DNA of 36,464 nt from a virus. The position numbers were made by a program, and so were the translations under genes. Shown in pieces: positions 1-26,523 of this stretch (position 1 is its first letter; the number at the start of each line of letters is the position of its first letter). The stretch spans positions 1 to 36,464 of the IMG/VR virus record IMGVR_UViG_3300045902_000346, one strand, 5' to 3'. The notes beneath the pieces are model-generated. The model saw only the letters and a list, made by a program, of their open reading frames with translations. It had not been told where the DNA came from and did no database searches.

Positions 1-61
1 AGGTCACGCTAGGGGTGACCGTGTTGACGGGAGTTTCTTCTTTTTTATTTTCGTTTGACAT
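1..61 (-). CDS. Start of an unidentified protein, truncated by the window edge
   Basis: An ATG at 61-59 opens a minus-strand frame that runs without a stop to base 1. About 20 residues are visible, beginning MSNENKKEETPV, hydrophilic and rich in Glu, Lys, Thr and Val. The ATG overlaps the TAA stop of the upstream gene (TAATG), the junction style used throughout this operon, which supports it as a real start. No domain can be recognised in so short a piece. Confidence 0.5.
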   Translation of the reverse strand, partial: MSNENKKEETPVNTVTPSVT

Positions 62-11663: not shown

Positions 11664-12080
11664 TTAGAAAGGGGTGGCGCTGTCGCCGTCATCAGCAGGA
11701 GGGGAATCATTATCGTCTGGCCCATCCTCTTCCTGCTTACCGCCACGCTTTCCGAGCGGTGGGAACCAGAATTCTTCTAGGCGAAACTTAATCTTACTGC
11801 GGTTGGTTTTGGTGGTTTTATCTTCCCATACTTCTTGTTTGGCCGCACAACGCACGGTAATGTAACTACCCTTCTCAAAGAATTTAGCGATAGTTTCAGC
11901 TTGTTTGTCCCAAGCTTCAATATCGAAGAAGTTGGTTTCTGTAACTTCTTTTCCATCCTTTTTCTTAAACTTTCTAGAACAGGCGATTGTAAAGCTAGCA
12001 ACTTTAGTGGAACCTACTTCTTTTACTTCCACGTCCCGAACTAGATTTCCAGTAAACAGACAAAAATTCATACTACTCAT
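11664..12080 (-). CDS. ssb: Single-stranded DNA-binding protein
   Basis: A protein of 138 residues with the OB-fold SSB pattern: NFCLFTGNLVRDVEVKEVGS, VASFTIACSRKFKKKDGKEV, NFFDIEAWDKQAETIAKFF, KGSYITVRCAAKQEVWEDK. The C-terminus is acidic and ends DDGDSATPF, the usual SSB tip that recruits partner proteins. It would coat ssDNA at the fork with the DnaB/DnaG/DnaE proteins encoded here. It has its own consensus promoter just upstream and a terminator downstream. Two facing copies of the GC-rich repeat are in the acidic tail coding region (11692-11709 and 11721-11740). Confidence 0.95.
   Translation of the reverse strand: MSSMNFCLFTGNLVRDVEVKEVGSTKVASFTIACSRKFKKKDGKEVTETNFFDIEAWDKQAETIAKFFEKGSYITVRCAAKQEVWEDKTTKTNRSKIKFRLEEFWFPPLGKRGGKQEEDGPDDNDSPPADDGDSATPF
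11692..11709 (+). repeat. GC-rich dispersed repeat, copy C
   Basis: Plus strand TCAGCAGGAGGGGAATCA, in the acidic tail of the SSB gene; it faces copy D twelve bases on. Confidence 0.55.
11721..11740 (-). repeat. GC-rich dispersed repeat, copy D
   Basis: Minus strand GTAAGCAGGAAGAGGATGGG. It encodes GKQEEDG in SSB and can pair with copy C as a short mRNA hairpin. Confidence 0.55.
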
Positions 12081-12147: not shown

Positions 12148-12513
12148 TTATAACTTATTAATTCCATTCTTTTCAAAATCTTTACGTCTTTCAGGAGTAT
12201 CTTTCATAATTCTTACATTACCAAAAATTTTTTCTGTAGGGGCAGGAACTAGAACATCCTTCGTTCTCACAATTCTTACCAACCAACCTTCCTTAGCGTT
12301 TGCTTCTATTACTCCATGCATAGGCTGGTCATTAAAATATGGAATTACATGCTGCCTTCGACATATACCTTCGTTATAATAACTTCCATCTGGATTTAAG
12401 ATAGGTTTGTCTACATGAGCGTAATCAAAATCACTTTTAATTTTTTGACTACCTATAGAAATAGACGGAACTAAAAATCCTAAAATTGAAGATAAAAAAG
12501 TTCTTCTTATCAT
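12148..12513 (-). CDS. Small protein with Tat-like signal sequence
   Basis: A protein of 121 residues. From the second ATG at 12513, which has GAGG at a usable distance, it begins MIRRTFLSSILGFLVPS, a twin-arginine-like N-terminus (RRTFL followed by a hydrophobic run) that suggests export through the Tat system or a short membrane anchor. The rest is soluble (FDYAHVDKPILNPDGSYYNE, HGVIEANAKEGWLVRIV) and unrecognised. It overlaps the end of the DnaE C-terminal gene by a few bases. It is odd to find an apparent exported protein between two replication genes. Confidence 0.5.
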   Translation of the reverse strand: MIRRTFLSSILGFLVPSISIGSQKIKSDFDYAHVDKPILNPDGSYYNEGICRRQHVIPYFNDQPMHGVIEANAKEGWLVRIVRTKDVLVPAPTEKIFGNVRIMKDTPERRKDFEKNGINKL

Positions 12514-13112
12514 ATCTGCCATACCTCTTTTACAATTAGGGAACCCTTCTTATCTCTCTCACCATGAATCAAAACTGTGTTTCCTTCTACCAAGAATTCC
12601 GCGAATTGTTGATAGATGTCTGCCCAGACACACACATCAGATAGAGCGCAAGTGTCATCTGATATGGTTAGGAAAGCCATCGTTTTGCCAGCCGAATTTC
12701 CTTTTTTAACTTTAACTTCTCGGATTGATTGAATCGTTACTCCAAACATTAAATAACCCTTACGGCCAGCCAAATATTCTTTACAAGAACAGTTCACTCT
12801 GCTAGTATCACAAGAATCAATTTTATTACACGAAATAGAAATTCCTAAGTATTTTTCTTCCGTCCAAGCAATAAGATTGGGTTCATCGTTCATACTTTTA
12901 ATAGGATGTTCTAATACTTTAATTTTATCCTTTAAAATTTCTACTCGATTAGCAATAGAGCAGGCTCCACCTTCTTTTTTACTTTTAGCTGCCGCCTTTA
13001 AAACTTCTAAAAAATTGGAGTATTTATTAAAATTCTTTAACACCCATTCTTGTTCCTTATCTGTTAAAGATGAGTAAACTCGATATTCTTCTAACATTTT
13101 AGTTCTTGACAT
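12510..13112 (-). CDS. dnaE: DNA polymerase III alpha, C-terminal OB-fold part (separate ORF)
   Basis: A protein of 200 residues. The N-terminal half is helical and has Cys residues (NKIDSCDTSRVNCSCKEYL). The C-terminal half matches the OB-fold at the end of DnaE: KGNSAGKTMAFLTISDD, CALSDVCVWADIYQQFAEFL, EGNTVLIHGERDKKGSLIV. It begins one base after the stop of the middle DnaE fragment (TAAAATG), so the two are almost one protein with a stop between. It should bind the ssDNA template and stabilise the polymerase. Confidence 0.72.
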   Translation of the reverse strand: MSRTKMLEEYRVYSSLTDKEQEWVLKNFNKYSNFLEVLKAAAKSKKEGGACSIANRVEILKDKIKVLEHPIKSMNDEPNLIAWTEEKYLGISISCNKIDSCDTSRVNCSCKEYLAGRKGYLMFGVTIQSIREVKVKKGNSAGKTMAFLTISDDTCALSDVCVWADIYQQFAEFLVEGNTVLIHGERDKKGSLIVKEVWQI

Positions 13113-13113
13113 T

Positions 13114-14199
13114 TTATTTATCCATGTATTTCATGCCGCCAACTTCAATCAATCTTTCTATAACTGTTGAAGTAATCCTGGGAGAAACTAAAACTAAAAA
13201 TTCATACCAATTTAAATCTGCAAGTTTTTTACCATAAACCATTTCGGCTTCGGAAACAACTTTCCGTAGTTTATCTACCTGGACTTCTCCAATTCCTTTT
13301 ACATCGGCAATTCCAAAGCGGATAGTTTTACCATCTGTGTAAAAGTGCTTTTTCATAGCTTTTAAATCAGGTGTTAAAATTTTAATATCCATAAGTTTAG
13401 CTTCATTGATTAATTCCCTAATTTCTTCTAAAGGGTCTTGTTTATCGCGAGCTTGACGTAGCCATGAAGTAAAGAAATAAATAGGAAAATGACATTTGCA
13501 ATAAGCTGACCAATAACCATTTACTGCATATGACATAGAGTGCGATTTATTAAAGCTATATCTTTGTGATTCTTTAATCCAGCCGAAAACTTCATTAATT
13601 TGTTCTTCGCTTAAAATATTAACTTTTCTTGCGCCTTCTACAAACATCTTTTCCACTTTTGCCATTTCATCAGCTAATTTCTTACCAATAGCTTTCCGAA
13701 GCACGTCAGCGTCTTGCAAATTGAATCCGGCCACAATTTGAGCAATTTGCATAGCTTGCTCTTGATAAGTTAAAATACCATATGTACTTTTTAGGACGTT
13801 CTCCAGGCAGGGGTGAAGATACTCTACTTCCTTTAATCCATTCTTTCTTAAACAGAATAACTCTGTTAGACTACAACCAGTTTTTTTATCAATAGACTTG
13901 GTACAACCGGGACGTAATAACGCGCCTAATGCACATAGGTGGTCGATAGACGTGGGCTTCATTTCTTTAGTCCAACGTTTTCCAGTTGCACCTTCTAATT
14001 GGAAAACGCCTTTGACCAAACCCTTCCCCAGCATTTTCCAAACTTCAGGACAATCCATATTAATGTTCTGAATGTCTAACTTAATAGGTGGAACTAAATC
14101 GTTCTTTAAATACCAATCTAATTCCTTACCACGGGAAATTAAATGGGATTCGCTAATCTCAAATTCACAACCACAAGGTTTAGTATAGAATCTTGGCAT
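13114..14199 (-). CDS. dnaE: DNA polymerase III alpha, middle part (fingers and helix-hairpin-helix)
   Basis: A protein of 361 residues. From about residue 47 it matches DnaE after the palm: NMDCPEVWKMLGKGLVKGVF and QLEG, LCALGALLRPG, HPCLENVLKSTYGILTYQEQ, GFNLQDADVLRKAIGKKLADE and RYSFNKSHSMSYAVNGYWSA, then FTDGKTIRFGIADVKGIG-type HhH (GIADVKGIGEVQ). The first 45 residues (MPRFYTKPCGCEFEIS) are not typical of DnaE. The palm catalytic Asp residues are in the other ORF at 24556-26523, more than 10 kb upstream, so both must be present for activity. It has AAGGAGAG before the ATG and its own promoter. Confidence 0.9.
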   Translation of the reverse strand: MPRFYTKPCGCEFEISESHLISRGKELDWYLKNDLVPPIKLDIQNINMDCPEVWKMLGKGLVKGVFQLEGATGKRWTKEMKPTSIDHLCALGALLRPGCTKSIDKKTGCSLTELFCLRKNGLKEVEYLHPCLENVLKSTYGILTYQEQAMQIAQIVAGFNLQDADVLRKAIGKKLADEMAKVEKMFVEGARKVNILSEEQINEVFGWIKESQRYSFNKSHSMSYAVNGYWSAYCKCHFPIYFFTSWLRQARDKQDPLEEIRELINEAKLMDIKILTPDLKAMKKHFYTDGKTIRFGIADVKGIGEVQVDKLRKVVSEAEMVYGKKLADLNWYEFLVLVSPRITSTVIERLIEVGGMKYMDK

Positions 14200-14216
14200 A
14201 CACTCTCCTTTTCTCT

Positions 14217-14244
14217 AGGATACCACGTTTTTCAGCGGTGTCAA
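14217..14244 (-). promoter_or_regulatory. Sigma70-like promoter ahead of the DnaE middle/C-terminal genes
   Basis: Minus strand TTGACA, 16 bases, TATCCT. The -35 box is perfect, the -10 box matches 4 of 6. It overlaps the last codons of the WavE-like gene and lies about 20 bases before the start at 14199, so the DnaE fragment need not depend on the long upstream transcript. Confidence 0.65.
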
Positions 14245-14964
14245 CTGTATAGCTCTCCGTATAATTTTTGTAAGTATCCAAAAGGATATCCATTAGGGTA
14301 ATGTTTCGGCCATTCAATAGGATATAGAGGAAATGCCGTAAAAGCATATTTCATTTCAATCATCTCCCGATAAACCTTCAAAGCTTCATCTTTTTTAGGA
14401 GACTTATCTGTTAAATACTCTTTCTTTTTTCTAAGCATCTTTAACATCCTATAGTTAAATAGGAAATAGTACCACATACCTATATAAGTCTCACTTCGCA
14501 CATCTTCAAACTCATTATAGGGACCAGTTTCTTCGTCTAATGGAATATTAAATAAACGCTGAACAAATCTTTTTTGTCCTAAAAAAAACATGGTCCCGAG
14601 GATGAAAAGGAAAATTAGGATAGAGACTTAAACTAAAAATATTTTTTTCTCGACCTTCTTTTTCGTAGAAAGAAATCATTTCAGTTAAATATGGCAAAAA
14701 CATATCCGCTCTAATTTTAATAACTAAATTACAAGAGGCATGAACAATTCCAGCATAACTACTAACTATTTGACAATTCCTATTACCTTTACCTTTATTT
14801 TTAGGTAAGGTATTTAGAATAATAGTATCTGGATTGCATTCATCTACATTTTCGCCTTTCCAAGTAGAAAGAATAATTTCTTTTACAAATGGAAAGGCTC
14901 TATATCTTTCTATATATTCGGGTGTTTGTTTAGCTACTGGACCCTGTAAAACTACACTTAACAT
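14241..14964 (-). pseudogene. WavE-like LPS/glycan biosynthesis protein, frameshifted in a T8 run
   Basis: Two overlapping frames make one protein of the WavE family. The first (14548-14964, 138 aa) has LSVVLQGPVAKQTPEYIERY, VKEIILSTWKGENVDECNPD, IVSSYAGIVHASCNLVIKIR and FPFHPRDHVFF. The second (14241-14591, 116 aa) continues FFLGQKRFVQRLFNIPLDEE and RSETYIGMWYYF. They join at a run of eight A on the plus strand (14581-14588), eight T in the coding strand; seven would give an uninterrupted protein of about 240 residues. It may be a sequencing or assembly error, a real mutation, or slippage. WavE proteins take part in LPS core synthesis and probably are glycosyltransferases. Confidence 0.75.
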
Positions 14965-16025
14965 TATTTACTCTTTACGAAAGTAGTACATTTACTAAAA
15001 TGTTTAATATCATTAGTTCCAATATAAGCACAGGCTGAACGAATTCCGCCCATAATATTTTTGAGAGTTTCTTTAACCTTACCTTTGTACGGCATTTCCG
15101 TGGACCGTCCTTCGGGGGCACGATGTTCTGCCACTCCTCCATAATATTTTTCCATTGCGTCTTTAGATGACATGCCATAGAATTTTAAAGCCTTTTTGCG
15201 CGCCATACTTCTAGCCACCATAAAATCATCCAATCTTTTTTCTGGCCCGTTAAAAACTTTTTCATAAATCCATTCACCCTCGCATTCATCATGTCCAGCC
15301 AGCATAGAACCTAACATGACGAAATCCGCACCGGCTCCAAAAGCCTTACAGATATCTCCAGAAGTAGAACAGCCTCCGTCTGCGCAAATATGCCCATTTA
15401 AACCGTGTGCAATGTCAGCGCATTCAATAATTGCGGAGAGTTGATAATATCCTACTCCAGTTACTTTTCGAGTTTCACAAACTCTTCCTGGCCCAATGCC
15501 AATTTTGATAATATCAGCACCAGCTAGAATTAATTCTTGAGTCATATCAGGCGTAGCTACATTACCTGCCATAATAATTGCTTTAGGATGTAACTCTCTA
15601 ATCTTCTTTAATTTATCTACAAAAAACTTAGTATAACCATTAGCGACATCTACGCATATTTTATCAATTGTTACTCTATCACTCACATATTTAAGTTTAT
15701 CAAAATCGTCGTTAGTAATACCTAGAGTATAAAAAGCGTTATCTGAACTTTCATTATTATGAAAAAATTCTAATAACAATTCTGGTTGATAAAATTTGTG
15801 TAGACAAGTAAACATTTTTTCTTTATGCAACTCTTCACACATCATCAAAGTTCCAGTGGCATCCATATTAGCAGCCATAATAGGCACACCTTCAATAACC
15901 TGTTTTGAGTTACGAGTAACAAATTTCCTAACTAAATTAACATCTGCCCGACTACCAGTTTCAGAGCGTTTAGGGCAAATTAAAACATCGTCAAAATCTA
16001 ATTTAATATCATTGATTATACGCAT
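14964..16025 (-). CDS. guaC: GMP reductase
   Basis: A protein of 353 residues with clear GuaC similarity along its length: MRIINDIKLDFDDVLICPKR, PIMAANMDATGT, ICVDVANGYTKFFVDKLKKI, AGNVATPDMTQELILAGADI, and the catalytic loop IGIGPGRVCETRKVTGVGYY, whose Cys forms the covalent adduct. ICADGGCSTSGDICKAFGAG binds the phosphate, and LKFYGMSSKDAMEKYYGG, RSTEMPYKG and GGIRSACAYIG complete the family pattern. GuaC deaminates GMP to IMP with NADPH. About 25 extra residues (around WIYEKVFNGPEKRLDDFM) lie before FYGMSS compared with the enterobacterial enzyme. It is encoded inside a sugar cassette, possibly to adjust purine pools or GDP-sugar supply (inference). Confidence 0.95.
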   Translation of the reverse strand: MRIINDIKLDFDDVLICPKRSETGSRADVNLVRKFVTRNSKQVIEGVPIMAANMDATGTLMMCEELHKEKMFTCLHKFYQPELLLEFFHNNESSDNAFYTLGITNDDFDKLKYVSDRVTIDKICVDVANGYTKFFVDKLKKIRELHPKAIIMAGNVATPDMTQELILAGADIIKIGIGPGRVCETRKVTGVGYYQLSAIIECADIAHGLNGHICADGGCSTSGDICKAFGAGADFVMLGSMLAGHDECEGEWIYEKVFNGPEKRLDDFMVARSMARKKALKFYGMSSKDAMEKYYGGVAEHRAPEGRSTEMPYKGKVKETLKNIMGGIRSACAYIGTNDIKHFSKCTTFVKSK

Positions 16026-16431
16026 GTAATATACCTTTAAAATAATTTTTAGCTTGTTCTTCAGTGGGATTCCAGTTACGAAAATCTAATAGTTGTTCAT
16101 CAGTAATAGGATAATGTTTATCCCCTGGAATCGAGGGTATTTTAATTACCACAAGACAAGTATCCGCTAAAAAACACACATCTATTTGTTGATTAGGTTC
16201 TGTTATCCAATAAGAAGAATTCATTATTCTAATACTATTATCTAACATCACATCTCCAGTAACAACAATATTAAATTCTGTTGCTATTTTATGGATATGT
16301 TTGTCTCCAAAAGTTCCCTTGCTATGATAATGAATTCCCACTTCAAAATTAGGCGTCTTAAATAGAGCGGGACTAAAATCTCCAATTATCCATCCTTTTT
16401 GAAATTCTGTTAGTCCACCACATTTAATCAT
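16009..16431 (-). CDS. Cupin-like protein
   Basis: A protein of 140 residues. FEVGIHYHSKGTFGDKHIHK, TEFNIVVTGDVMLDN and the later VVIKIPSIPGDKHYP fit a cupin beta-barrel with His ligands in the first motif (HYHSKG...HIH) and a distal strand. Small cupins in sugar clusters are often isomerases or regulators, but no specific family is recognisable. It overlaps the end of rpiB and the start of guaC. Confidence 0.55.
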   Translation of the reverse strand: MIKCGGLTEFQKGWIIGDFSPALFKTPNFEVGIHYHSKGTFGDKHIHKIATEFNIVVTGDVMLDNSIRIMNSSYWITEPNQQIDVCFLADTCLVVIKIPSIPGDKHYPITDEQLLDFRNWNPTEEQAKNYFKGILHAYNQ

Positions 16432-16870
16432 TGTTTGCCATCATCCTTGTTTGATGTCTTCCACCGTCAAAGGTTTCTTGGTATAAAATGTTTAGAACGT
16501 TCCATAAAATTGTTTTATCATCTATTAAGTGGTGAGATGATAAAGCAAAAAAATTGCCCGCGTTATGTCTGATAGCATATTCTGCATTGTATTGGTCAGT
16601 AATTAGACAAGAACGAATTCCGTCGATTTTATTCGCGCAAATATTAATTCCCTGTCCACTTCGACAAATTCCAATACCGAAATACTCTTTATTTTTCAAT
16701 ACATAGTCTGCTGCCATTTTAACGTAGACATTATAATCACAGTCTTTAGTATTAAAACAGCCAAAATCAATATACTCAATTTTTCTATTAGATAATATCT
16801 TCATAATTTGTTGCTTTAATTCGTAACCAGAATGGTCACAACATAAAGCAAATTTTCTATTTAAAAATAT
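16424..16870 (-). CDS. rpiB: Ribose-5-phosphate isomerase B-like (RpiB/LacAB), unusual start
   Basis: The frame reads KFALCCDHSGYELKQQIMKI, the N-terminus of RpiB with its active-site Asp-His, then YIDFGCFNTKDCDYNVYVKM, the catalytic-Cys loop FGIGICRSGQGINICANKI, YAIRHNAGNFFAL and GGRHQTRM. It thus looks like a full RpiB of about 145 residues, interconverting sugar phosphates such as ribose-5-P and ribulose-5-P or a related heptose/pentose pair. The only ATG, at 16804, is inside the protein and would remove the CDHSGYELK segment. No ATG, GTG or TTG lies further upstream before the open frame merges with the end of the nucleotidyltransferase gene; coordinates to 16870 assume ATA. The frame is -1 relative to that gene's stop (see findings). 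Confidence 0.75.
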   Translation of the reverse strand: MFLNRKFALCCDHSGYELKQQIMKILSNRKIEYIDFGCFNTKDCDYNVYVKMAADYVLKNKEYFGIGICRSGQGINICANKIDGIRSCLITDQYNAEYAIRHNAGNFFALSSHHLIDDKTILWNVLNILYQETFDGGRHQTRMMANND

Positions 16871-17598
16871 CTATAAGAAACACTCTCGAAAAAATTAAAT
16901 TCTTCAGGAGTGCCCATAATATGAATTTTCTCAATAGAACGTTGAGTTATTACTGATGGAAAAATTCGTTCACAATTATCTTTTAATAGTTCATTATACA
17001 ATGGACAAATATGAGTTTCCTTAGAAGATTTATTAATATAATCTTCGGCGTAACTTTTAAATAGCCTAGTAGTCTTAAAACAGTAAACTCCTACCGAAGC
17101 TAGGTTGCTAGGAAGCACTTCTTTTTCTTTAGTAAGAATAACTTTACCCTGTTCATTTAATTGAACATAGCTATAGTTAGGACTATTAGATTTAAAAGTT
17201 AAAATTAACCCATCATTCTTAAAATCTTCATCACAAGGCTTATAACATGGAGAAAAAGTGGTATCTGGACAATAAACAACCAATGGTAAATCTTCAGATA
17301 AATCTTTTAATCCAATTAAAACGGTTTCAGTTGCCCCACTTGTGGCTTTTTCCGTAATCACAATTTTAATATTATGACCAAATTTATTCTTCAACCAACT
17401 GTCAATAGAATAATTTTTTACGTGTTCCTGTCTAACTACAAAAGTCACTTGACATTCACTCGTATCAATAGAATCCATTGACCATTCTAAAATACTTTTA
17501 TTTCCACATATCAACATCGGCTTAGGAAGAAAAAAGCCCCCATCTACCATACGTTGACCCTTACCCGATAGAGGCACCACTAGATTATACTTTACCAT
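16861..17598 (-). CDS. Sugar nucleotidyltransferase (RmlA/HddC-like)
   Basis: A protein of 245 residues. The nucleotide-binding loop is NLVVPLSGKGQRMVDGGFFL then PKPMLICGNKSILEW, with SGATETVLIGLKDL and VVYCPDTTFSPCY (the Asp of the metal site) further on, and VGVYCFKTTRLF and HIMGTPEEFNFF near the end, typical of RmlA-type sugar-1-phosphate nucleotidyltransferases. Preceded by the GC-rich repeat copy that also provides an AGGGAAGGG ribosome site. With the kinase, phosphatase and isomerase next to it, it would build an NDP-activated sugar. Confidence 0.82.
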   Translation of the reverse strand: MVKYNLVVPLSGKGQRMVDGGFFLPKPMLICGNKSILEWSMDSIDTSECQVTFVVRQEHVKNYSIDSWLKNKFGHNIKIVITEKATSGATETVLIGLKDLSEDLPLVVYCPDTTFSPCYKPCDEDFKNDGLILTFKSNSPNYSYVQLNEQGKVILTKEKEVLPSNLASVGVYCFKTTRLFKSYAEDYINKSSKETHICPLYNELLKDNCERIFPSVITQRSIEKIHIMGTPEEFNFFESVSYRYF

Positions 17599-17600
17599 AT

Positions 17601-17620
17601 GCCCTTCCCTGCTTACTTAC
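17601..17620 (-). repeat. GC-rich dispersed repeat, copy E (between genes)
   Basis: Minus strand GTAAGTAAGCAGGGAAGGGC, immediately before the ATG of the nucleotidyltransferase gene and overlapping the end of the kinase gene. It doubles as the Shine-Dalgarno region. Confidence 0.6.
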
Positions 17621-18314
17621 ATAAATTTTGATTTTCTTCTCGGAGCCAAGTTAGAACTTTTTCATGAGAAAGTTCAATACTCTCTTCAAAAGGAAGGTTT
17701 TGGACGAGATAGTTTTCAATGAAATTTCCAGCAAATTTGTCACCGGCACCTGTAACAAAAACGAAGTCTTCTTTTGCGTGATAATACTTAAAGGTTAATT
17801 TTCCTCTCTGAAAAAGCAAGCTGCCATTTTCACTGTGACAAATTAAAATTTTCTTATCGCTAGCCTTTTTCACTTTTTCAAAATGTTCGTGATGACACGA
17901 CATGAACACTATATCACAAGCTTCCACGTTTTGCAATGTGGATTCTAAGGAAATTGTTGGGTTAGGCCCATTAGATAAATCACAAGATTTATATTTACTT
18001 TTAAATTTTGAGATATCTAAATCTGGAATAGTGTTGGCATACATGAAATGTATCCAATCTGTTGTCACTATCTTATTCTCAAAAAATTTTTCAACTTCCT
18101 TTGTTTGATTTTTCTCAGCCCACGTCGCACAAGTTACCGGAGCAACTACATCAGATAGCAAATAGTAGGCTGAATTATAATCAGTAGCCACATTCGGAAA
18201 ATTAGTAATATTACTAATCCCACCCACACCTATCCATTTTTTAAATTTATGATTTTTAATAACATGGAAATAATCAGTAAAAGAACTTCCAACTACATAA
18301 ACTTCATGTTTCAT
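17613..18314 (-). CDS. PfkB/ribokinase-family carbohydrate kinase
   Basis: A protein of 233 residues. The PfkB signature with the catalytic Asp is clear at the end: FVFVTGAGDKFAGNFIENYL. The N-terminus, VYVVGSSFTDYFHVIKN, and GGISNITNFPNV, are the expected beginnings and substrate-binding Gly-Gly. It is shorter than typical PfkB proteins (about 300). It would phosphorylate a sugar or sugar phosphate, like the kinase half of HldE in ADP-heptose synthesis; the nearby isomerase, phosphatase and nucleotidyltransferase support an NDP-sugar pathway. Substrate unknown. Confidence 0.75.
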   Translation of the reverse strand: MKHEVYVVGSSFTDYFHVIKNHKFKKWIGVGGISNITNFPNVATDYNSAYYLLSDVVAPVTCATWAEKNQTKEVEKFFENKIVTTDWIHFMYANTIPDLDISKFKSKYKSCDLSNGPNPTISLESTLQNVEACDIVFMSCHHEHFEKVKKASDKKILICHSENGSLLFQRGKLTFKYYHAKEDFVFVTGAGDKFAGNFIENYLVQNLPFEESIELSHEKVLTWLREENQNLCK

Positions 18315-18799
18315 ACGGATACCTTTGAACTATTTTATCTTTAAAAGCTTCATAAAGAAGTTCTACTACACCATCTCCACCATTTCTATTTAAAACGTAC
18401 TTAACGTTACTTTTAACTATTTGAGCCGCATCTTTTGGGCAAAAACTCCAACGTAGATTAGCTAAAAGAGATAAATCGTAATAATCATCTCCCACATAAG
18501 CCACATCTTCTTTATTCACTTTATAAATTTCACATATTTTTTCTATAGCAACTTCTTTGTCTAATTGATTAGAAATTTCTTTAGCGTTATAGAATGGTAC
18601 TCCTCGACTTCTAGCCATTCCTCTATTAAAAGAATCTCCAGAAAGAAAAACTACTGGAATCATTCCAGACTGAAATCTTTTAATAGCCGTAAAATCTCTA
18701 TCGCAAAATTCTTTAGAAACTACTTCATGTTGACTATTATAAGTTTTTTTTACCGGTTGTTAAAACTCCATCAACGTCTAATACTAGTAACTTAAACAT
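18304..18799 (-). pseudogene. KdsC-like HAD phosphatase, frameshifted in an A8 run
   Basis: A HAD-type phosphatase of about 165 residues: MFKLLVLDVDGVLTTGKK (motif I, DVDG) in the frame of the GDPD-like gene, then after one frame change YNSQHEVVSKEFCDRDFTAI, MIPVVFLSGDS (motif II), VAIEKICEIYKVNKEDVAYV and GDDYYDLSLLANL (motif IV). The frame change falls in a run of eight T at 18744-18751 (eight A in the coding strand); seven would give one intact protein. KdsC-like enzymes remove the phosphate of a sugar phosphate such as KDO-8-P. Its ATG at 18799 follows the GDPD-like domain without a stop between. Confidence 0.72.
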
Positions 18800-19261
18800 T
18801 GTCGGAGCATATTCTTCAGTAGAAAAGGTGGATACCCAATGTGAAACAACTCCATATGCATCAAAATTGATTCCAGCTAATTTACCATTTAAATCTACAA
18901 CAATTTCATCATTAGAATATTTTGATGGAAATTTAGCGTCTTCATGATAAAGCACTTTATTTTTAGATGTTAAACATACATGGTCTAAATCTTGGTAAAA
19001 AGAATGAATAGTAGGATACTTCAATAATTTCTGAAAAGTTTCTATAGTTTTTGCGTGAACTAATAGTCTACTGTCTTCTAAGAATTGTTTAGTTATTTCT
19101 TCTTGAGGTTTATCGTGACCTAAATAATACTTCCCATTGATATATCGCACATCAATTTCTACATCAAAACCGTTTCTAAAAGCTTCATCAATGTAAGCGC
19201 GAGTATTTTCTAATTCAGATTTAGGGCCAGAAATATTCCCTCTATGAGCGTAAAACTTCAT
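18737..19261 (-). CDS. Glycerophosphodiester-phosphodiesterase-like domain fused to the start of a HAD domain
   Basis: From the ATG at 19261 (GAGG six bases before) the protein begins FYAHRGNISGPKSELENTRA, the GDPD/PI-PLC signature HRG...E-N-T, and continues GFDVEIDVRYINGKYYLGHD. This matches a compact GDPD-like TIM barrel of about 150 residues found in capsule and phage sugar clusters. Without a stop it runs into MFKLLVLDVDGVL, the first motif of a HAD phosphatase, before the frame ends at TAA after an A8 run. The natural product may be a GDPD-HAD fusion or two proteins with the HAD initiated internally. The ATG at 19312 lacks support. Confidence 0.68.
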   Translation of the reverse strand: MKFYAHRGNISGPKSELENTRAYIDEAFRNGFDVEIDVRYINGKYYLGHDKPQEEITKQFLEDSRLLVHAKTIETFQKLLKYPTIHSFYQDLDHVCLTSKNKVLYHEDAKFPSKYSNDEIVVDLNGKLAGINFDAYGVVSHWVSTFSTEEYAPTMFKLLVLDVDGVLTTGKKNL

Positions 19262-20144
19262 TAATAACCTCGCAGTAATTTTCGTAAAATTTTCTCTCCG
19301 ACCAATTTTCATAGAAATAATCTAAGGAAGGCGGATTTTCTAAAATACTTTTTAAACTTCTTTTTTCTAAACAAGTTTCAGGAGCGAAAGTCGTAATATG
19401 TCGAAACATTGGGTCATTAGTAACTGCAATTGGCCGTTTAGAAGCCAAAGCCCAATCTACTGAACTAGAACATCCCTGACTTAAGCTATTTGTATTTTTA
19501 TACATGAATACATTTATACTATTCTCAGAGAGCCAATTGACTAGCTGTTGCTCATCTTTATAATCATGTGTGACAACAAGTTTAATATTAGGCTTCAAAG
19601 GAATACTCTTTAATTTCTTAGACATTCTTAAAGCGTAATAACCACTGCTATCAACCTTAGTATTTAAAGGTATATGAATGCGAACAGTAGCTTGCTCAAA
19701 TTCATCATTAACTTTTTGTACTAAATCTTCAAATCCTTTATGGTCAAAACCGAATCCGAAGGAGCCTATTGTATCAGGAAGAACCTGATTTGGCAAGTCG
19801 AAATGTAGGATGGGACGCCCAACATTGAAATCAGTATTAGTATTTCCGAAAGTCGGGTCTGGACGAAACACAGAGATGTTATTAAAATTAGGTCTTTCAT
19901 CATGCATTAACAATGCAGATTTTCTAACATTGGTAAGAAAGGAGTTATTTATCCAAGACATAGTGCAAGGATGATAATTGAATACGATTAAATCGTAGTC
20001 AAATTTGTCTATTGGAGATGTAGTCTCTAAATATTCAAATTTATGAATATCATTATATTTAAGCAAAATCAGTGAGGTATTTTTTCCAAATTGATAAACA
20101 CCACACTGACTTTTTTCTTGATTAACAAATAGTATTTTACTCAT
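19242..20144 (-). CDS. Glycosyltransferase-like protein (GT-B, tentative)
   Basis: A protein of 300 residues. The N-terminus is MSKILFVNQEKSQCGVYQFG, a common start of GT4 proteins with a Gly loop. Then FDYDLIVFNYHPCTMSWINN, LLMHDERPNF and, in the C-terminal half, VRIHIPLNTK and the donor-side SLSQGCSSSVDWALASKRPI resemble a GT1/GT4 Rossmann half (the usual E-A-M-A is replaced by VDWALASKRP). It overlaps the genes at both ends. Moderate confidence for the fold, none for substrate. Confidence 0.6.
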   Translation of the reverse strand: MSKILFVNQEKSQCGVYQFGKNTSLILLKYNDIHKFEYLETTSPIDKFDYDLIVFNYHPCTMSWINNSFLTNVRKSALLMHDERPNFNNISVFRPDPTFGNTNTDFNVGRPILHFDLPNQVLPDTIGSFGFGFDHKGFEDLVQKVNDEFEQATVRIHIPLNTKVDSSGYYALRMSKKLKSIPLKPNIKLVVTHDYKDEQQLVNWLSENSINVFMYKNTNSLSQGCSSSVDWALASKRPIAVTNDPMFRHITTFAPETCLEKRSLKSILENPPSLDYFYENWSERKFYENYCEVINEVLRS

Positions 20145-21453
20145 TCCAACTTCTAACAGAAGAATCTAATTTATTAAACACCAGAGAACCATCCTTCCAT
20201 TCATACACTCCCGGTTCCGGCATTGCCACGATAAATTTTCCACCATTTCTTAAATAGTCTATTTTCTTATTAATAAAGAAGGAAGTAAAATGCCAAGGTA
20301 AAATTAGTAAATAATCTGGTTTCATAGCCAAACCTTCTGATTCACTAATAATTTTAATATTAGAACCAGCAGTATATTTACCAAATTTATCTTTACTAAC
20401 TTCTAAGATATACGGAATATCTGTCGATGTTAGTTTAGCGCATTGAAGATAAGTATTACCTTTAGTAGAAGCGCCTAGACCAAAGATTTTCTTACCCTTT
20501 TTATTTTCTTCTTTAATAAAAGAAGACGTTGATTCATTAATATGTTGAATAATTCTATTGAATTCTTTCCAATCTCTATTCTTAAACAACTCTTCTTCTT
20601 TATCTAAGCAGTTTTGTACTGAAGGCTTAATCTTGTGAGTATCTTCTTTGCAAATATAAACTCGAATAGACCATCCATTTACGTCATTATAAGAAACGTC
20701 AAAAATATCTAATTCACATTCTTTTAGTAGTTTTTGTAATAACTTTAAAGAATAGTATGCGATATGTTCATGGCAAATATTATCATAAGCATTGACTTTT
20801 AACATAGAAGTTAAATCGGTCATTTGCAGAACCCACACACCTTTTTCTGACAAGTTCTTTCTGATAGCGTTTGCAAATTTACGAGGTTCTGTCACATCGT
20901 AAAACATAGCAATAGAAGATATAATGTCGAAAGGCGCATCAAAATACACATCTGATGGAAAGTAAGTGTTAATAAATACATTGCAATTTTGTATAGCACT
21001 ACTAGCTAGATTATTAGCCGGGTCATATCCAACTTTAAAGAAATTGTCTGGATAAAAAGAAAGTAATGTGCCGTCATTAGCTCCAATGTCCATAACTCGA
21101 TTATATCGAATATCAGCTTTTTTGCTAGTCTTTTCTACTACATCTCTCAATGACTCTACCATACTATTATTCAACCCAGAACGATACCAATATTCTCGGT
21201 ACATACTATCTGGTGGAAGCACATTAGTTAACTGGACGAAATTACAATGTGGGCATTGTGATAACGAAAGTTCTTCTTTTTTCAGTAAGGAAGTTTGAGA
21301 AGGACTGTCTAAAAATAAAGACGGATAAATTTTTCCTAAATTTACGACCTTAGTATTAAATTTGGAATAAGTTTCCTCACAGTAAACACATTTAATTGAA
21401 AAGTTTTTTTCAACGTCCTGAAAAATTTCTCGTAAAGTATCAGAATCAATCAT
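20137..21453 (-). CDS. NDP-sugar C-methyltransferase-like enzyme
   Basis: A protein of 438 residues. The start at 21453 has GGAGAAATT before it; the TTG at 21477 lacks such a site. The N-terminal zinc-binding part has CVYCEETYSKF and SQCPHCNFVQLTN. The SAM-binding part is RVMDIGANDGTLLSFYPD, and VNAYDNICHEHIAYYSL is the family signature of C-methyltransferases that modify NDP-keto sugars. The last third (KKIFGLGASTKGNTYLQ) is the C-terminal Rossmann domain of the same family. It would add a methyl group to a ketosugar made by the neighbouring enzymes. Confidence 0.85.
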   Translation of the reverse strand: MIDSDTLREIFQDVEKNFSIKCVYCEETYSKFNTKVVNLGKIYPSLFLDSPSQTSLLKKEELSLSQCPHCNFVQLTNVLPPDSMYREYWYRSGLNNSMVESLRDVVEKTSKKADIRYNRVMDIGANDGTLLSFYPDNFFKVGYDPANNLASSAIQNCNVFINTYFPSDVYFDAPFDIISSIAMFYDVTEPRKFANAIRKNLSEKGVWVLQMTDLTSMLKVNAYDNICHEHIAYYSLKLLQKLLKECELDIFDVSYNDVNGWSIRVYICKEDTHKIKPSVQNCLDKEEELFKNRDWKEFNRIIQHINESTSSFIKEENKKGKKIFGLGASTKGNTYLQCAKLTSTDIPYILEVSKDKFGKYTAGSNIKIISESEGLAMKPDYLLILPWHFTSFFINKKIDYLRNGGKFIVAMPEPGVYEWKDGSLVFNKLDSSVRSWNE

Positions 21454-22496
21454 AATTTCTCCAATAAGTTTTTCCAATCCGCCATATTTTTGTCTATTGA
21501 GAAGTATTTTAAAGCTGCTTCTCTACCACCTTTAGATATTTGACGAGCTAAATTCTTATCTTCTAGTAAAAGTTGTAAATAACCTCTAAGTTCTTTTACA
21601 TCATCAGACCAGAAACCAGACACTCCATTTTCAATATAAGTATGTGCCTCAAAAGTAGGCTTATCTGGAGAAACGCTTCCAATCTTAGGGCCGATACTCA
21701 CTGTAGGTATTCCAGTAGAAAGAGCTTCCATGAAAGAATAAGTGAACGGTCCCGGCTTAGTACAAGTAGAAAAATAAACTCCAGCTTCTACTCGTAACTT
21801 TTGAATTTCAGCAGGAGAGAGGTCACCGGCTGAAAACGAAATGTCTTCATTCTCAAAGCCCCCTACGATTCTATTAAATCCTGCTGTTACGTCTAAGTAA
21901 GTATTCCAGGCGGAATAATCTCCACGCTTCTTCATCCATTTATTAATAGTTAAAACGTAATCTTTTTCACCGGTCCATCCTTGATAGTAATTTGTGTCTA
22001 CATAAGGTCTAATCACGGCATCAAAATCGTGAAATCTATTAATATATTTTTCGGTATTGGAATATGCCACTTTCTTTACTTTAGAAACGTAAGGACTAAA
22101 GTGGGTTTGAGGTTGGCCTATATATCTAACTATGACAGGTTTATTCTTAAAAGAGTCCCAATTCAATGTTAGATTTTCTTCAAAGTGAGCCACAATCAAA
22201 ACATCAAACAGTTTAGCAAACTCTTTATGTATTTTCTTATAATAAATACCTAATATATCTTTGATAGTGATTTTATCAAAGCGTTCAACAATTTCATCAT
22301 AGTTATGATAGAACTTAAATTTTTCTAATAACTCTTCATCAATTTTAATATCTAGTTTTTCACTTTTAGTAGGATGACAAGGTCGTCTGGGGTCAATATA
22401 ATGTCCAAACGAAAAAACTTGATGACCAAGTTTATCTAAAACTTTTAGTTCATCAAATTCTAACGTTTCGTGACAAGATAAGTATAATATTTTCAT
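21450..22496 (-). CDS. Glycosyltransferase, GT-B fold (family 4-like)
   Basis: A protein of 348 residues: MKILYLSCHETLEFDELKVL, DVLIVAHFEEN, KPVIVRYIGQ and the donor-binding region VYFSTCTKPGPFTYSFMEAL with STGIPTVSIGP, then GREAALKYFSIDKNMADWKN. All fit a GT4-like enzyme. A copy of the GC-rich repeat (21806-21829) and a weak facing copy (around 21879-21890) are inside it. Confidence 0.78.
   Translation of the reverse strand: MKILYLSCHETLEFDELKVLDKLGHQVFSFGHYIDPRRPCHPTKSEKLDIKIDEELLEKFKFYHNYDEIVERFDKITIKDILGIYYKKIHKEFAKLFDVLIVAHFEENLTLNWDSFKNKPVIVRYIGQPQTHFSPYVSKVKKVAYSNTEKYINRFHDFDAVIRPYVDTNYYQGWTGEKDYVLTINKWMKKRGDYSAWNTYLDVTAGFNRIVGGFENEDISFSAGDLSPAEIQKLRVEAGVYFSTCTKPGPFTYSFMEALSTGIPTVSIGPKIGSVSPDKPTFEAHTYIENGVSGFWSDDVKELRGYLQLLLEDKNLARQISKGGREAALKYFSIDKNMADWKNLLEKL
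21806..21829 (+). repeat. GC-rich dispersed repeat, copy F
   Basis: Plus strand TTTCAGCAGGAGAGAGGTCA, continuing CCGG; a weak inverted partner, TCCTGCTG, follows at 21879-21886. It codes for LSPAE in the glycosyltransferase read from the other strand. Confidence 0.5.
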
Positions 22497-22963
22497 TTAA
22501 TTACCGTTCCATCTCCATTTAATCTAATCGAGTCACTATCTTCATGGTGAGTAGAAATTTCTATTAAGGTCACATCAGTATGACCATATAATCTATGAAC
22601 CATTCCAGTTGGGATATGTAGGCTATCAGATTCATGTAATTTTACACATTGAGCCGTTAATTCACTCTTATCCCAAGATAGTAAAACGTTTAATTCTCCA
22701 TTGAGAATGTAAAAACATTCGTCTTTCTTTTCATGATAGTGCCAACTGGTATATTTACCCTTTTTAATAAAAAGAATTTTTCCACAATACAAAGGGCTAT
22801 TAATTATCCAGTTTTCATACCCCCAGGACTTGCTTACAAACTTTTGCGTTTCAGAAGTACGGGGAAAGTAGAACTCAAATAAGTCAAAAGGGTGGGCAGG
22901 CTTCCGTCCAAGCCAAGACGGAACACCCTTATCCACTGGCACCCTCTCCTGCTGATTTTGCAT
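22493..22963 (-). CDS. Cupin protein (sugar-isomerase-like)
   Basis: A protein of 156 residues. GYENWIINSPLYCGKILFIK, KGKYTSWHYHEKKDECFYIL and LHIPTGMVHRLYGHTDVTLI give the two cupin motifs with the His-His-Glu metal ligands, as in the C-terminal cupin of type II mannose-6-phosphate isomerases/GMP. It may be a sugar epimerase or isomerase of the cassette. The ATG at 22963 lies inside the 3' end of the exonuclease gene. The TTG at 22969 is also possible. Residues 2-11 contain QQERVPV, encoded by repeat copy G. Confidence 0.72.
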   Translation of the reverse strand: MQNQQERVPVDKGVPSWLGRKPAHPFDLFEFYFPRTSETQKFVSKSWGYENWIINSPLYCGKILFIKKGKYTSWHYHEKKDECFYILNGELNVLLSWDKSELTAQCVKLHESDSLHIPTGMVHRLYGHTDVTLIEISTHHEDSDSIRLNGDGTVIK

Positions 22964-23606
22964 TTCCAAAAACTCCTCTAAATGTGGTTTTGGCAGCGAT
23001 GTTTCTGTGAAACTTCATGAATCTCGCTAGAATCATAGCTGTATCTTTTACGTCTTTGATAGCATTGTGAGCCCCATCTTTGGGAATACCAAAATAGTCT
23101 CTTAAGGTATCAAGTTTATAATTAGCCACATCTTTGTTATTTTCAAACCACGTAAAACACAAACATAATAAATCTATTTTATCTCTACCGTGAAACAGAA
23201 TAGGTTCTTTACTTTTATTATCTAAAGGCCCGTATAGTTTGCACATTCTGTTTACAATATGCATATCATAACCTAAAATATTATGACCTGCTGCAATTGG
23301 AGCCCCCCAAAAGCTTTTCTTTTTATTATACTTATTGCAATAATTAGTAAATGCTTCCCAGGCTTCTTTTTGGTTAATCCCTTTTTTATCTACTACAGAT
23401 TTTTCAATCTTGTTAATAGCTAAAGCCTCGTCTTCAACTTTAGACCAGTCAGTAGGCTTAATATAAGTCTCAAATTCTGAATTTGGTTTTATTTCTAGAC
23501 TGCGAGAATCAATAGCTACGGCGGCTAATTGTAATGGTTCACAAGTATGAGGGTCTTTTCCACCAGTCTCAAAGTCAAAAACAATAATATCGTTATAGTT
23601 TATAAT
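22929..23606 (-). CDS. DnaQ-like 3'-5' exonuclease (DEDDh), non-AUG start
   Basis: The frame starts INYNDIIVFDFETGG, with the exonuclease motif I (DFET), then AAGHNILGYDMHIVNRM (motif II with Asp), and AHNAIKDVKDTAMILARFM (motif III, H...D). About 225 residues. The only ATG, at 23264, would cut off motif I and is therefore not the real start. Upstream of the true N-terminus there is GGAG, then ATT (23606) and ATA (23603), the latter overlapping the previous TAA as ATAA, but no ATG, GTG or TTG. It could be the proofreading partner of the DnaE proteins or a recombination exonuclease. The last residues are encoded by the GC-rich repeat. Confidence 0.85.
   Translation of the reverse strand: MINYNDIIVFDFETGGKDPHTCEPLQLAAVAIDSRSLEIKPNSEFETYIKPTDWSKVEDEALAINKIEKSVVDKKGINQKEAWEAFTNYCNKYNKKKSFWGAPIAAGHNILGYDMHIVNRMCKLYGPLDNKSKEPILFHGRDKIDLLCLCFTWFENNKDVANYKLDTLRDYFGIPKDGAHNAIKDVKDTAMILARFMKFHRNIAAKTTFRGVFGNAKSAGEGASG
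22934..22957 (-). repeat. GC-rich dispersed repeat, copy G (in a gene overlap)
   Basis: Minus strand TCAGCAGGAGAGGGTGCCAG, continuing TGGA. It lies in the overlap of the exonuclease end (SAGEGASG) and the cupin start (QQERVPV), so it is read in two frames. Confidence 0.65.
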
Positions 23607-23917
23607 GACTGTTCTCCGTTATCCTTAATAGAAATCAGAATTCCATTATCTTTTTCGCTAATACTTAGTTTATTTGATAGTTCCTCTTGAAGAACTACTG
23701 TTACAAAATTATTATCTACAACATATTCACCGTTATTAGCTAAAGCTATGGCGCTGAAAGTAGTGTAAACACTTCTTTTGAAATTCTCAAACTTAATGTA
23801 TTCGTTAGTGTATAGTTCATCCTTTAGTAAAGATGCCACTTTTAATTTCTCTACTTCAGCTTTTAGAGAAGCGATTTCTTTTTCCTTGTCAGATTTTTCC
23901 CAAAACTTAAGTTTCAT
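23600..23917 (-). CDS. Hypothetical protein with N-terminal coiled coil (105 aa)
   Basis: Not recognised. KEKEIASLKAEVEKLKVASL at residues 11-30 is a short coiled coil. The rest alternates strands and helices (FVTVVLQEELSNKL). ATG at 23917 overlaps the preceding stop (ATGA). By position it may be a small accessory to the exonuclease that follows. Confidence 0.5.
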   Translation of the reverse strand: MKLKFWEKSDKEKEIASLKAEVEKLKVASLLKDELYTNEYIKFENFKRSVYTTFSAIALANNGEYVVDNNFVTVVLQEELSNKLSISEKDNGILISIKDNGEQSL

Positions 23918-24273
23918 TTTATATTCCTGAAAAAATTAATAGTTTGTTCTTCTAGCTTCTTACCTCTTAAGAGTATATAAGAAACTGTATACCAAGGATA
24001 TACTTTGATATTATTGAACAGAAATTCTTTTCCCGCTATATCCTTCATCTTCATCTTTTTATTATTTAATATAGTAGACGTGCAAGCCTGACCTAATGAT
24101 ATTATACGAGTCGTTTGTATGTTTTTGAATTCCAAATTTTCATCATGGATACAAAAATTATTCTCTATGCCACTCTTCTTCAGTAGACAAATTAAATAAT
24201 CTCCGTATCTATTAGGAAACCATTCTTCTAGTATCTTACCACCCAATCTTTCTTCAGTAAAGATTCGTAGCAT
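23914..24273 (-). CDS. Uracil-DNA-glycosylase-superfamily-like protein (tentative, short)
   Basis: A protein of 119 residues from the ATG at 24273 (GAGG six bases upstream). RIISLGQACTSTILN and, about 40 residues later, IKVYPWYTVSYILLRG resemble the C-terminal half of family 4/5 UDG proteins, where LG.xA..xL and (V/T)YP..HP.yLLR occur. The His-Pro of the active site is replaced by Trp-Tyr, and an N-terminal E-A-P-G motif is not visible, so it is probably a divergent or inactive member, or unrelated. Confidence 0.35.
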   Translation of the reverse strand: MLRIFTEERLGGKILEEWFPNRYGDYLICLLKKSGIENNFCIHDENLEFKNIQTTRIISLGQACTSTILNNKKMKMKDIAGKEFLFNNIKVYPWYTVSYILLRGKKLEEQTINFFRNIK

Positions 24274-24556
24274 ATACTTCCTCATCGGTTTTACTAAGTT
24301 TATCATTCACTGAATTGTCTATAAATCTAGAAATAGCTTCATCCAGCTTTTCTTCTGCAAATTCTGCAAATTCTATATTATCTTCTGTGAGCTTACTCAC
24401 ATTCCATTTCTTTCTATCCCAAAATAAAGAAGATTGTTCGGACTCGACCCAAAATAAATCTTTTCTTTTTCCTAGGATATCTTTAATTAAATTATTAACA
24501 GAAACTTTTCTTTCTAGAGCGGAGTATTCTAAATCGTCTAATTTAATTCCAACCAT
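24254..24556 (-). CDS. Hypothetical acidic helical protein (100 aa)
   Basis: Not recognised. The protein has no Cys or membrane segment; its second half is rich in acidic helices (FAEFAEEKLDEAISRF). ATG overlaps the stop of the DnaE N-terminal gene (TAATG), so it is coupled to it, and a link to polymerase function is possible but unproved. Its end overlaps the start of the next gene. Confidence 0.5.
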   Translation of the reverse strand: MVGIKLDDLEYSALERKVSVNNLIKDILGKRKDLFWVESEQSSLFWDRKKWNVSKLTEDNIEFAEFAEEKLDEAISRFIDNSVNDKLSKTDEEVYATNLY

Positions 24557-26523
24557 TATTCACCCTCGATAGTTCCGTTTAAAAGCAACTCTTGAACACC
24601 CATAATTTTATCTAGGACAGCTACCCCTAGAATATCAAATTTCACATGCCCCATCGCCTCCAGAGCGCCCATTTCCATGCCCGCAATCATTAATCCAGTA
24701 GACTTGTCATAAACCATTGGGCAAACGTCGGCTAAGACGCTATTGGAAATCACCACGCCTGCGGCGTGCTTACCTTGACTTTTTTTAGTTCCCTCTAATC
24801 TAATAGCTTGTTCAAATAACTTAGAATACTGACCGTCTAAACTACCATCTTCCTTAATAAAGCACCACTGCTTTAGTTCTTTTGGCCGATTCTCTAGAGC
24901 CCATCGAAGAATACTAGCCTCACCAGTTTCTTCCATCATTAACTGTAGTTCATCTGAAATTTCAGCTTCTTGAGGTATGAACTCGTTAATTTTATTAATT
25001 TCTTCAAAGCTACAAGCGTCGTGAGCCCGAAATACGTCTTTGACCGCGCCTCTTCCTTGCATTCGGCTAAAGGTAACCATTTGAGCCACCTTATCCATTC
25101 CGTAGGTATTACGGATATAAGACAGTATCTCCTCACGGAAACTAATAGGGAAGTCACAATCAATATCGGGTAGAGAAACTCGACCGGGAGCATTTCTACC
25201 AGCGTTATAGAATCTCTCGAAGAGTAAATCATTCTTAATTGGGTCTACCACTTTGTCAGTAATACCGATTAAAGCTGAAACTAAACATCCAGCACCAGAA
25301 CCGCGCCCCGGAGAAAGTAAACATCCTTTACTTCTGGCGTAATTACAATAATCTTGAACAATTAAGAAGTAAGAGGCTAGACCAGCTTCTTTGAAAACGT
25401 CTAACTCCTTCTTAATTCTATCTCCGTATTTTGAGTATTCTTCCTTTTTAATAATAGGCTTAATAGTCTTCTTCCAACCTTCTACACATAATTCTCTTAA
25501 ATAATCATCTGGAGATAATCCGTTGGGACATTTGAATTGAGGAATAGAAGGTGTGCCAAGAATATCATATTCTTCACACATCTCATTAATTCTCATAGTG
25601 TTATTTATCTCTACATCTGTATGTAGACTTTCCATTTCTAAAGTTGATGGAATATGATAATTATTTGATTTAAAGAAACAGTCTAATAAGTAATTATCTG
25701 TATTAGCAATTTTATTCTTAACTTCTTTAAATGTAGTTTCCATTAAAGAACATACTAAAACTCTTTGGTCAATAGCATCTTCTTGAGTGGGATAATAATT
25801 ATTACCAATAGCCACTAATTGATTTTCAATTCCCTTTTCTTTAGCTAAATAACGAATAATCTTATTACTAATTGAGTTAGCTGGAGTATTTTTAGCATCA
25901 ATTAAATTAGAAGCTAAGAAAAAATTCTCTTTTCCAAAAATAGATTGATACTTTTCAATCATATCCAAACCACGTTTTTTCCAATCTGACTCTACATAAG
26001 ATTTTGCAATCTCATAAAGCTTAGTTGAATAAGCTAACTTCAGATTTTCCTTATTAAATAAACAATTGGACAAATCTGAGTTTAAATGACCGCTAATAGC
26101 AATCAGATTACCTTTTTGAGTAAACTTACTAAGTTCGTCTAAAGAAATACGAGGTTTATAGTAAAAGAAATCGGGGTGATTAGATTGAGAAATAATTTTA
26201 ATTAAATCTCGCCACCCCTCAAGATTTTTAGCTAAAACATAAACTTGTGATAATTTCCGATTAAATTCTTCTTTAATTGTTGGCTTACTATCACATAAAT
26301 ATAAATCGCAACCTAAAATTGGTTTAATCGCATAGCCTGATTCCTTTTTCATCTTCTTAAAAGATTTCATTACGTCAACTACACCACTTACACTACCTTG
26401 GTCGGTAATAGCGCAAGCGTTATATCCTAAATTCTTACATCTTTCAGCAATCTGATTAGCTTTGTTAGAGCTATTCAGTAGACTGTAGTGAGTATGACAA
26501 TTAAGTGGAATCCATTGTTTCAT
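24556..26523 (-). CDS. dnaE: DNA polymerase III alpha, N-terminal half (PHP + palm)
   Basis: A protein of 655 residues. The PHP domain begins PLNCHTHYSLLNSSNKANQI and ACAITDQGSVSGVVDVMKSF, with metal-binding His and Asp. The palm has LLSPGRGSGAGCLVSALIGI, SLPDIDCDFPISFREEIL (two catalytic Asp), VAQMVTFSRMQGRGAVKDV, KHAAGVVISN, and MGHVKFDILGVAVLD with the third Asp. It stops ~15 residues later (NGTIEGE), at the point where DnaE would continue to VFQLE. That continuation is encoded at 14199-13114. No intein fragment is visible at the end, so the two should associate non-covalently. PHP ligands appear present. Confidence 0.93.
   Translation of the reverse strand: MKQWIPLNCHTHYSLLNSSNKANQIAERCKNLGYNACAITDQGSVSGVVDVMKSFKKMKKESGYAIKPILGCDLYLCDSKPTIKEEFNRKLSQVYVLAKNLEGWRDLIKIISQSNHPDFFYYKPRISLDELSKFTQKGNLIAISGHLNSDLSNCLFNKENLKLAYSTKLYEIAKSYVESDWKKRGLDMIEKYQSIFGKENFFLASNLIDAKNTPANSISNKIIRYLAKEKGIENQLVAIGNNYYPTQEDAIDQRVLVCSLMETTFKEVKNKIANTDNYLLDCFFKSNNYHIPSTLEMESLHTDVEINNTMRINEMCEEYDILGTPSIPQFKCPNGLSPDDYLRELCVEGWKKTIKPIIKKEEYSKYGDRIKKELDVFKEAGLASYFLIVQDYCNYARSKGCLLSPGRGSGAGCLVSALIGITDKVVDPIKNDLLFERFYNAGRNAPGRVSLPDIDCDFPISFREEILSYIRNTYGMDKVAQMVTFSRMQGRGAVKDVFRAHDACSFEEINKINEFIPQEAEISDELQLMMEETGEASILRWALENRPKELKQWCFIKEDGSLDGQYSKLFEQAIRLEGTKKSQGKHAAGVVISNSVLADVCPMVYDKSTGLMIAGMEMGALEAMGHVKFDILGVAVLDKIMGVQELLLNGTIEGE

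Follow-up and report, generated by a model that had tools for sequence, protein, structure and literature searches.

The DNA considered here, IMG/VR virus record IMGVR_UViG_3300045902_000346 (36,464 bases; below, the window), carries on its minus strand a family C (DnaE-type) DNA polymerase in three open reading frames (ORFs), which we call N, C and T. The strand also holds three small ORFs and an exonuclease-like gene (X) after N, a sugar cluster before C, and a further small ORF and the SSB gene after T (Table 1).

Table 1. Features of the polymerase region in the window
Feature	Position	Strand	Description
N	24556..26523	-	655 amino acids; PHP + palm/thumb; all three catalytic Asp; stop 22 residues past VKFDILG
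Three small ORFs between N and X	24254-24556, 23914-24306, 23600-23917 (span 23600..24556)	-	no Pfam match
X, putative DnaQ-like DEDDh 3'-5' exonuclease	22929..23606	-	Pfam/PHROG (C-terminal half), DEDDh residues
Sugar cluster between X and C	14241..22969	-	8.7 kb
Promoter-like TTGACA-16-TATCCT, TG before -10, upstream of C	14217..14244	-	promoter scan
C	13114..14199	-	361 amino acids; fingers + HhH; N-terminal CxC hairpin (C9, C11) + C50
C/T junction GAT-AAATAAA-ATG	13110..13122	-	stop TAA 13116-13114, one base, ATG at 13112
T	12510..13112	-	200 amino acids, OB-fold tail; in relatives fused to C
SSB	11664..12080	-	gene after C in relatives

Each piece can be recognized as a distinct part of the enzyme. 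N matches the Pfam families PHP and DNA_pol3_alpha (1.3e-65) and C matches DNA_pol3_finger (1.6e-43); matches of C to HHH_6 and of T to the OB-fold family tRNA_anti-codon lie slightly below the cut-off. PHROG 405, a phage DNA polymerase family of 1190 positions, is covered in order and without overlap (N 41-613, C 622-925, T 929-1080), so that PHP, HhH and OB domains are all represented. When the AF2 models of N and C (pLDDT 88.3 and 92.5) were placed on known structures with VIA-align, N covered residues 3..577 of Escherichia coli Pol III alpha (2hnh; Z 36.4) and 5..637 of Taq alpha, and C covered 576..893 (Z 22.2) and 636..949, respectively. The models thus tile both chains, placing the cut at the palm/fingers boundary with no part lost there. 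Since C ends near E. coli residue 893, N and C together approximate the catalytic core in the 910-residue chain of 2hnh, and T is the OB region further on. Of the three catalytic aspartates in N, two are in PDID and one in VKFD; the FNKSHS motif is unbroken in C. The earlier note on this DNA, made from the sequence alone, had described just this: a DnaE in three ORFs, with the catalytic residues all on an N-terminal half that ends shortly after VKFDILG and an OB-fold tail that starts a base past the stop of C. The domains and catalytic aspartates of family C are present, and the single polypeptide usual for that family is not found in the window or in any of the 163 loci described below; we would therefore class the enzyme, presumed to be active, as a split member of family C.

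The same break recurs in many related loci. A search with C found 156 viral loci, and in the best 80 of these C is always apart from the palm and starts at about the same place. Searching viral contigs with the N of the window alone gave no match; a search with alignment A2 succeeded, finding 593 loci, of which the best 80 were kept. Together with two loci from bacterial/archaeal bins (L084 and L085) and the window, the 80 loci found by C and the 80 found by N make 163; the searches overlap and some contigs were matched twice, there being 103 distinct N ends among the 163. In 156 of the 163 loci N, X and C follow one another as separate genes on one strand; the other seven are cut by a contig end, and in none of the 163 are N and C fused. 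A deeper search with C (best 80 of 587 loci) returned 70 N-X-C loci, 2 with N itself in two parts (N1-N2-X-C), 5 split loci without X (L388, L389, L391, L392 and L393) and 3 unsplit ones (L394-L396). In the X-less loci N and C are 0.9 to about 14 kb apart, and thus a distance between the halves is not peculiar to the window.

We built separate trees for N and for C and a joint one for N+C from 102 rows (every second locus of the remainder plus chosen relatives and outgroups), excluding the fragmentary or intein-broken rows L003, L005-L010, L012, L178 and L179. In all three, 59 N-X-C rows, the five X-less rows and one further locus, L316, form one clade (support 0.992, 0.998 and 0.999), and the unsplit L394-L396 are its sister (1.0, 0.909 and 1.0). 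The N-X-C subclade has support of 0.818 and 0.445 in the single trees and 0.999 in the joint tree. An unsplit DnaE in related phages, for which the earlier note had suggested looking, is therefore found in the sister group and in none of the 163 loci, which indicates that the split is old; compared with one member, the C proteins of the split group have 32-75% identity. Refusion of N and C was not seen among the sampled loci, and a single fission, retained afterwards, would be the simplest account of the trees. L316 could be a separate split event, since it has no CxC hairpin on C and carries inserts in both halves.

A search of bacterial/archaeal bins gave 80 loci, of which 9 were laid out: L084 and L085 are split N-X-C, L086, L087, L090, L113, L135 and L157 are in one ORF, and L088, cut at the contig start, has palm and fingers in one ORF. 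Among a further 59 DnaE loci, 49 are in one ORF, 1 is split N|C (L316) and in 9 palm and fingers share one ORF, the gene being interrupted further upstream or truncated by the end of the contig. In L265, L266, L294, L301 and L302, which belong to another viral DnaE lineage, the break falls between PHP and palm and leaves palm and fingers joined. The N of the five X-less loci (N loci L397-L401) has about 100 extra residues directly before PDID. No cultured member of the split clade was found; the C matches listed among phage records are at most 36.1% identical, and the PDDEXK gene of the window (28809-29834) has no match in 50,697 phage records.

Could the two halves be joined after all, by protein or RNA trans-splicing? 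Cyanobacterial DnaE is encoded by two unlinked genes whose products are rejoined by a split intein at FNKSHS, and related viral lineages do carry a split intein or an endonuclease ORF at other places in these genes. In L178 and L179 C is interrupted at FNKSHS; there are matches to Hint and, below the cut-off, to an intein-splicing family, and a homing-endonuclease-like ORF lies between the parts. In L003 a LAGLIDADG ORF (7369-8262) interrupts N just before PDID, and likewise in L004-L010 and L012. The window break differs from the cyanobacterial one and leaves FNKSHS intact, as had been claimed before; it lies about 180 residues earlier. Among 28 N and 28 C proteins, all of the former match PHP and the Pol III alpha palm and all of the latter the fingers, whereas no Hint or intein family is found in any, in keeping with the earlier claim that there is no intein at the ends. 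Of the 44 loci displayed, two are N fragments; in the remaining 42, N has its stop about 15-30 residues past (V/I)KFD(I/V)LG. C opens with a CxC hairpin instead of an intein end. No Rfam family matches within the 97,729 bases of the window, L002, L003 and L011. On these grounds an intein or intron at N|C was rejected, as was fission by a homing endonuclease or intron, there being no ribozyme by Rfam in those four sources and the gene between the halves being DnaQ-like. The breaks in L178/L179 and the L003-type loci show that the tests can detect such elements, and the halves thus most likely bind as folded chains; trans-splicing we consider hardly credible. The C break in L178, with its split intein, spans 12792-15784, and L172 and L173 keep C whole.

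The CxC hairpin is present on C in 87-89 of 98 distinct loci and a third Cys in 93 of them. Both also occur in the five X-less split loci, and neither in L316 nor at the three unsplit junctions. One might guess at a role in docking or metal binding. Cys601 of N was considered as a fourth metal ligand, being nearly invariant in A2, and was dropped, since it is Val in the X-less split loci.

Selection acts on the pieces. Each catalytic Asp is kept in 95 of the 98 distinct loci, the window included, and the other three loci are fragments of a re-broken N; the D, E, D, H and D residues of X are kept in 97-98, and the motifs of C are kept across the 98. For eight close pairs, dN/dS of N, X and C is 0.013-0.119, indicating purifying selection on all three. 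The root-to-tip length of the window is 0.82, below the clade median of 0.93, so it has no long branch.

The second break, between C and T, is particular to the window. The 27 other rows of alignment A1 pass the site gap-free, so that the window has 7 extra bases, which create a stop, the old internal Met becoming a start one base later. Probably, this is a real second fission with reinitiation at the ATG. It might be objected that errors of sequencing or assembly produced this break, or even the arrangement as a whole. Two neighbouring sugar genes are frameshifted at T8 and A8 runs, which leaves room for a sequencing error at C|T, and no other copy of the window turned up. However, a difference of 7 bases is unlike a homopolymer slip, and it leaves a usable ATG; N|C is found in all 156 complete loci with conserved flanking synteny, and two other records carry different insertions at the same X/C junction. 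We thus regard an artefact as unlikely.

Family A and B polymerases were also sought. PolA and PolB are absent from the window, and neither PolA nor PolB (PF00136) was found in any of 24 large related records (about 100-231 kb). The finger domain is present in all 24 and DNA_pol3_alpha in 23; the record that lacks the latter, that of L014, is truncated ahead of N. The earlier note had named a second complete DNA polymerase, together with loss of key residues in the DnaE, as what would speak against a working enzyme; no PolA or PolB turned up in these records, and the key residues are kept. One can nevertheless envision that N and C have separate jobs, for instance N as a nuclease and C as a DNA-binding protein, while a host polymerase copies the genome, a view that the five split records without X between the halves might favor. 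Against it, polymerase residues are kept in both halves in the 98 distinct loci examined, and the halves sit in a RecA-helicase-primase-N-X-C-SSB replication module, making such a division of labor very improbable.

This leads us to propose an ancient, single fission of DnaE at the palm/fingers boundary, with halves that would assemble non-covalently into a working enzyme; we give this a probability of roughly 85%. The proposal starts from what is observed directly: the gene structure, its conservation, the single clade, the selection and the exact tiling on known structures. We imagine that an ancestral phage DnaE was broken once into N (PHP, thumb and palm, with the catalytic Asp residues) and C (fingers, HhH and OB), which would be translated separately and associate into one family C core. 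X, encoded between the halves, would supply 3'-5' proofreading, and the CxC hairpin at the new N-terminus of C may aid docking. In the lineage of the window, sugar genes would later have entered the X/C junction, moving the halves 10 kb apart, and the 7 extra bases would then have freed the OB tail T, probably by termination-reinitiation at the internal Met. A working enzyme made from pieces, as the earlier note had suggested, is thus the best-supported reading of the sequences.

Several points weigh against this proposal. The AF2 models describe individual chains rather than an N+C complex, and no Shine-Dalgarno sequence is evident before T in the window. The 24 large records carry no completeness value and may be incomplete; their lack of PolA and PolB therefore supports, but does not settle, the view that N+C is the sole polymerase; the window itself is a 36-kb record, leaving space for a second polymerase elsewhere in the phage. 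G015, the 206,326-bp record behind L179, holds two DnaE sets separated by about 146 kb; C is broken in one and whole in the other, perhaps because two genomes are in one contig. Finally, 53 columns of N are constant in at least 97% of the other loci, and the N of the window deviates at 6 of these (median 0; only L010, an N fragment, exceeds this, and L196 also has 6), and its PHP metal residues are partly altered (D to N, H to Q). Such changes, together with the three pieces, the stop within the old C gene and the frameshifts in two nearby sugar genes, would fit a polymerase that is being lost, its pieces the remnants of a dead gene. We find decay very improbable, given the retained catalytic residues, the window branch that is not long, the low dN/dS of the clade and an N|C split that is clade-wide.

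A bolder version of the fission proposal we hold only tentatively and rate as doubtful. In it, the clade would depend on a replicase of several obligatory chains, N + X + C, and the split would serve a function instead of being neutral. The CxC...Cys hairpin that C has in split lineages would clasp N, perhaps via a metal, and X would be built in at the palm/fingers seam; separate expression would let assembly be regulated, and the polymerase of the window would have gone further, to three chains, its OB subunit being free.

How does this compare with known polymerases? PolC, the Pol III of Gram-positive bacteria, is one chain with a DnaQ-type exonuclease inside its PHP domain. There, as here, polymerase and DnaQ-type exonuclease are encoded as a unit, whereas X of the window is a protein of its own, its gene lying between those of the halves. 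The cultured Rossellomorea phage phiT1 (gp20/gp18; L246) has a DnaE split at the same palm/fingers boundary, with an ORF of 49 amino acids between the halves instead of a DnaQ gene; none of the three trees places it within the split clade, so its break is probably independent. Bacillus phage Jayan and Tenacibaculum phage Larrie (both cultured; GenBank) have DnaE in two ORFs, broken before PDID approximately as in the L003-type loci, and none of these three phages has a DnaQ-like gene between the pieces. Group 2.2 jumbo phages have been reported to make a split minimal Pol III alpha (Iyer et al. 2021, PMC7824862). It resembles our case in being a family C enzyme made as two stand-alone proteins from distant genes, with reconstitution proposed. 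It differs in being a minimal catalytic module that lacks the other Pol III domains, with PolB alongside and the Mg-binding part on the C-terminal protein, whereas the window has PHP, thumb, fingers, HhH and OB, catalytic Asp residues all on N and no PolB found. In OM43 phages MEP401/402 a replicative polymerase of family A is divided over two ORFs that flank another gene, and most genomes of their viral group share this; apart from the family, they differ in that their authors consider an intron possible (PMC10580990). A split Pol III alpha is therefore already known. For the N-X-C arrangement of the split clade, a palm/fingers-split DnaE with DnaQ between, we found no report in the open-access literature, as far as its available text goes, Iyer et al. 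(2021) being the nearest.

A replicative polymerase would hardly be expected to survive a cut through its catalytic core; here the cut is old, and N+C is seemingly the sole replicative polymerase encoded by these phages. As a natural, intein-free split Pol III, it offers a way to test palm/fingers assembly and a ready split point for engineering, and with L394-L396 as unsplit sisters it is a clear case of gene fission. It also cautions that annotation by length will miscall viral DnaE genes as truncated.

The earlier note had seen about 10 kb of mostly sugar genes between the halves. The distance stands (10,356 bp from the N stop to the C start), as does the sugar cluster; the three small ORFs lie there too, and X had been overlooked. 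X is probably a DnaQ/epsilon-type exonuclease, judging by its DEDDh residues, and may act with the polymerase; it has no ATG, GTG or TTG start, only ATT/ATA at about 23606, and overlaps the stop of the preceding ORF. In most relatives the N/X gap holds one small ORF of about 60 amino acids; in many N-X-C loci this is a conserved protein that has an SCC motif, matches no PHROG and was not seen in the window. In relatives the stop-to-stop frames of X and C mostly share between a few and some tens of bases, suggesting coupled translation.

The sugar cluster includes cupin, methyltransferase, glycosyltransferase, PfkB-like, NTP-transferase, RpiB-like, IMPDH-like and WavE-like genes. Its ORFs are unmatched in 160 related loci, except 21450-22496, of a glycosyltransferase family with matches in 15 loci, and synteny with relatives is kept on either side (RecA, DnaB, primase, PDDEXK, N, X ... 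C, SSB, glycosyltransferases). Other cargo lies at the X/C junction in L233 (3.6 kb: an FkbM-type methyltransferase, a DUF1559 protein and ThyX) and L196 (4.4 kb: a D12 methylase and others), so the junction tolerates insertions. The 10-kb distance is a later insertion in the window lineage, not the origin of the split. The DUF1559 protein of L233 (13966-14958) is pilin-like; DUF1559 is typical of Planctomycetes, a possible host hint. The frameshifts in the sugar cluster are in the WavE-like and HAD-like genes, each at an 8-base homopolymer (14581 and 18744), and reflect slippage, decay or sequencing error. The earlier claim that the distal part has its own promoter finds no support beyond chance: the site before C is one of 70 promoter-like sites in the scan, against 63.1 +/- 7.9 in shuffles, and is thus no proof of a promoter. 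A 12/12 promoter-like match, TTGACA-17-TATAAT, precedes SSB (12143-12115).

Elsewhere in the window, a PhoH-like gene (6709-8472) has a LAGLIDADG insert by Pfam, probably an intein. At the other end (36150-36464), a RecA frame runs to the contig end; at its Walker A site it passes through what, by eye, resembles the C-terminal end of an intein (FITTHN|TTTALYF).

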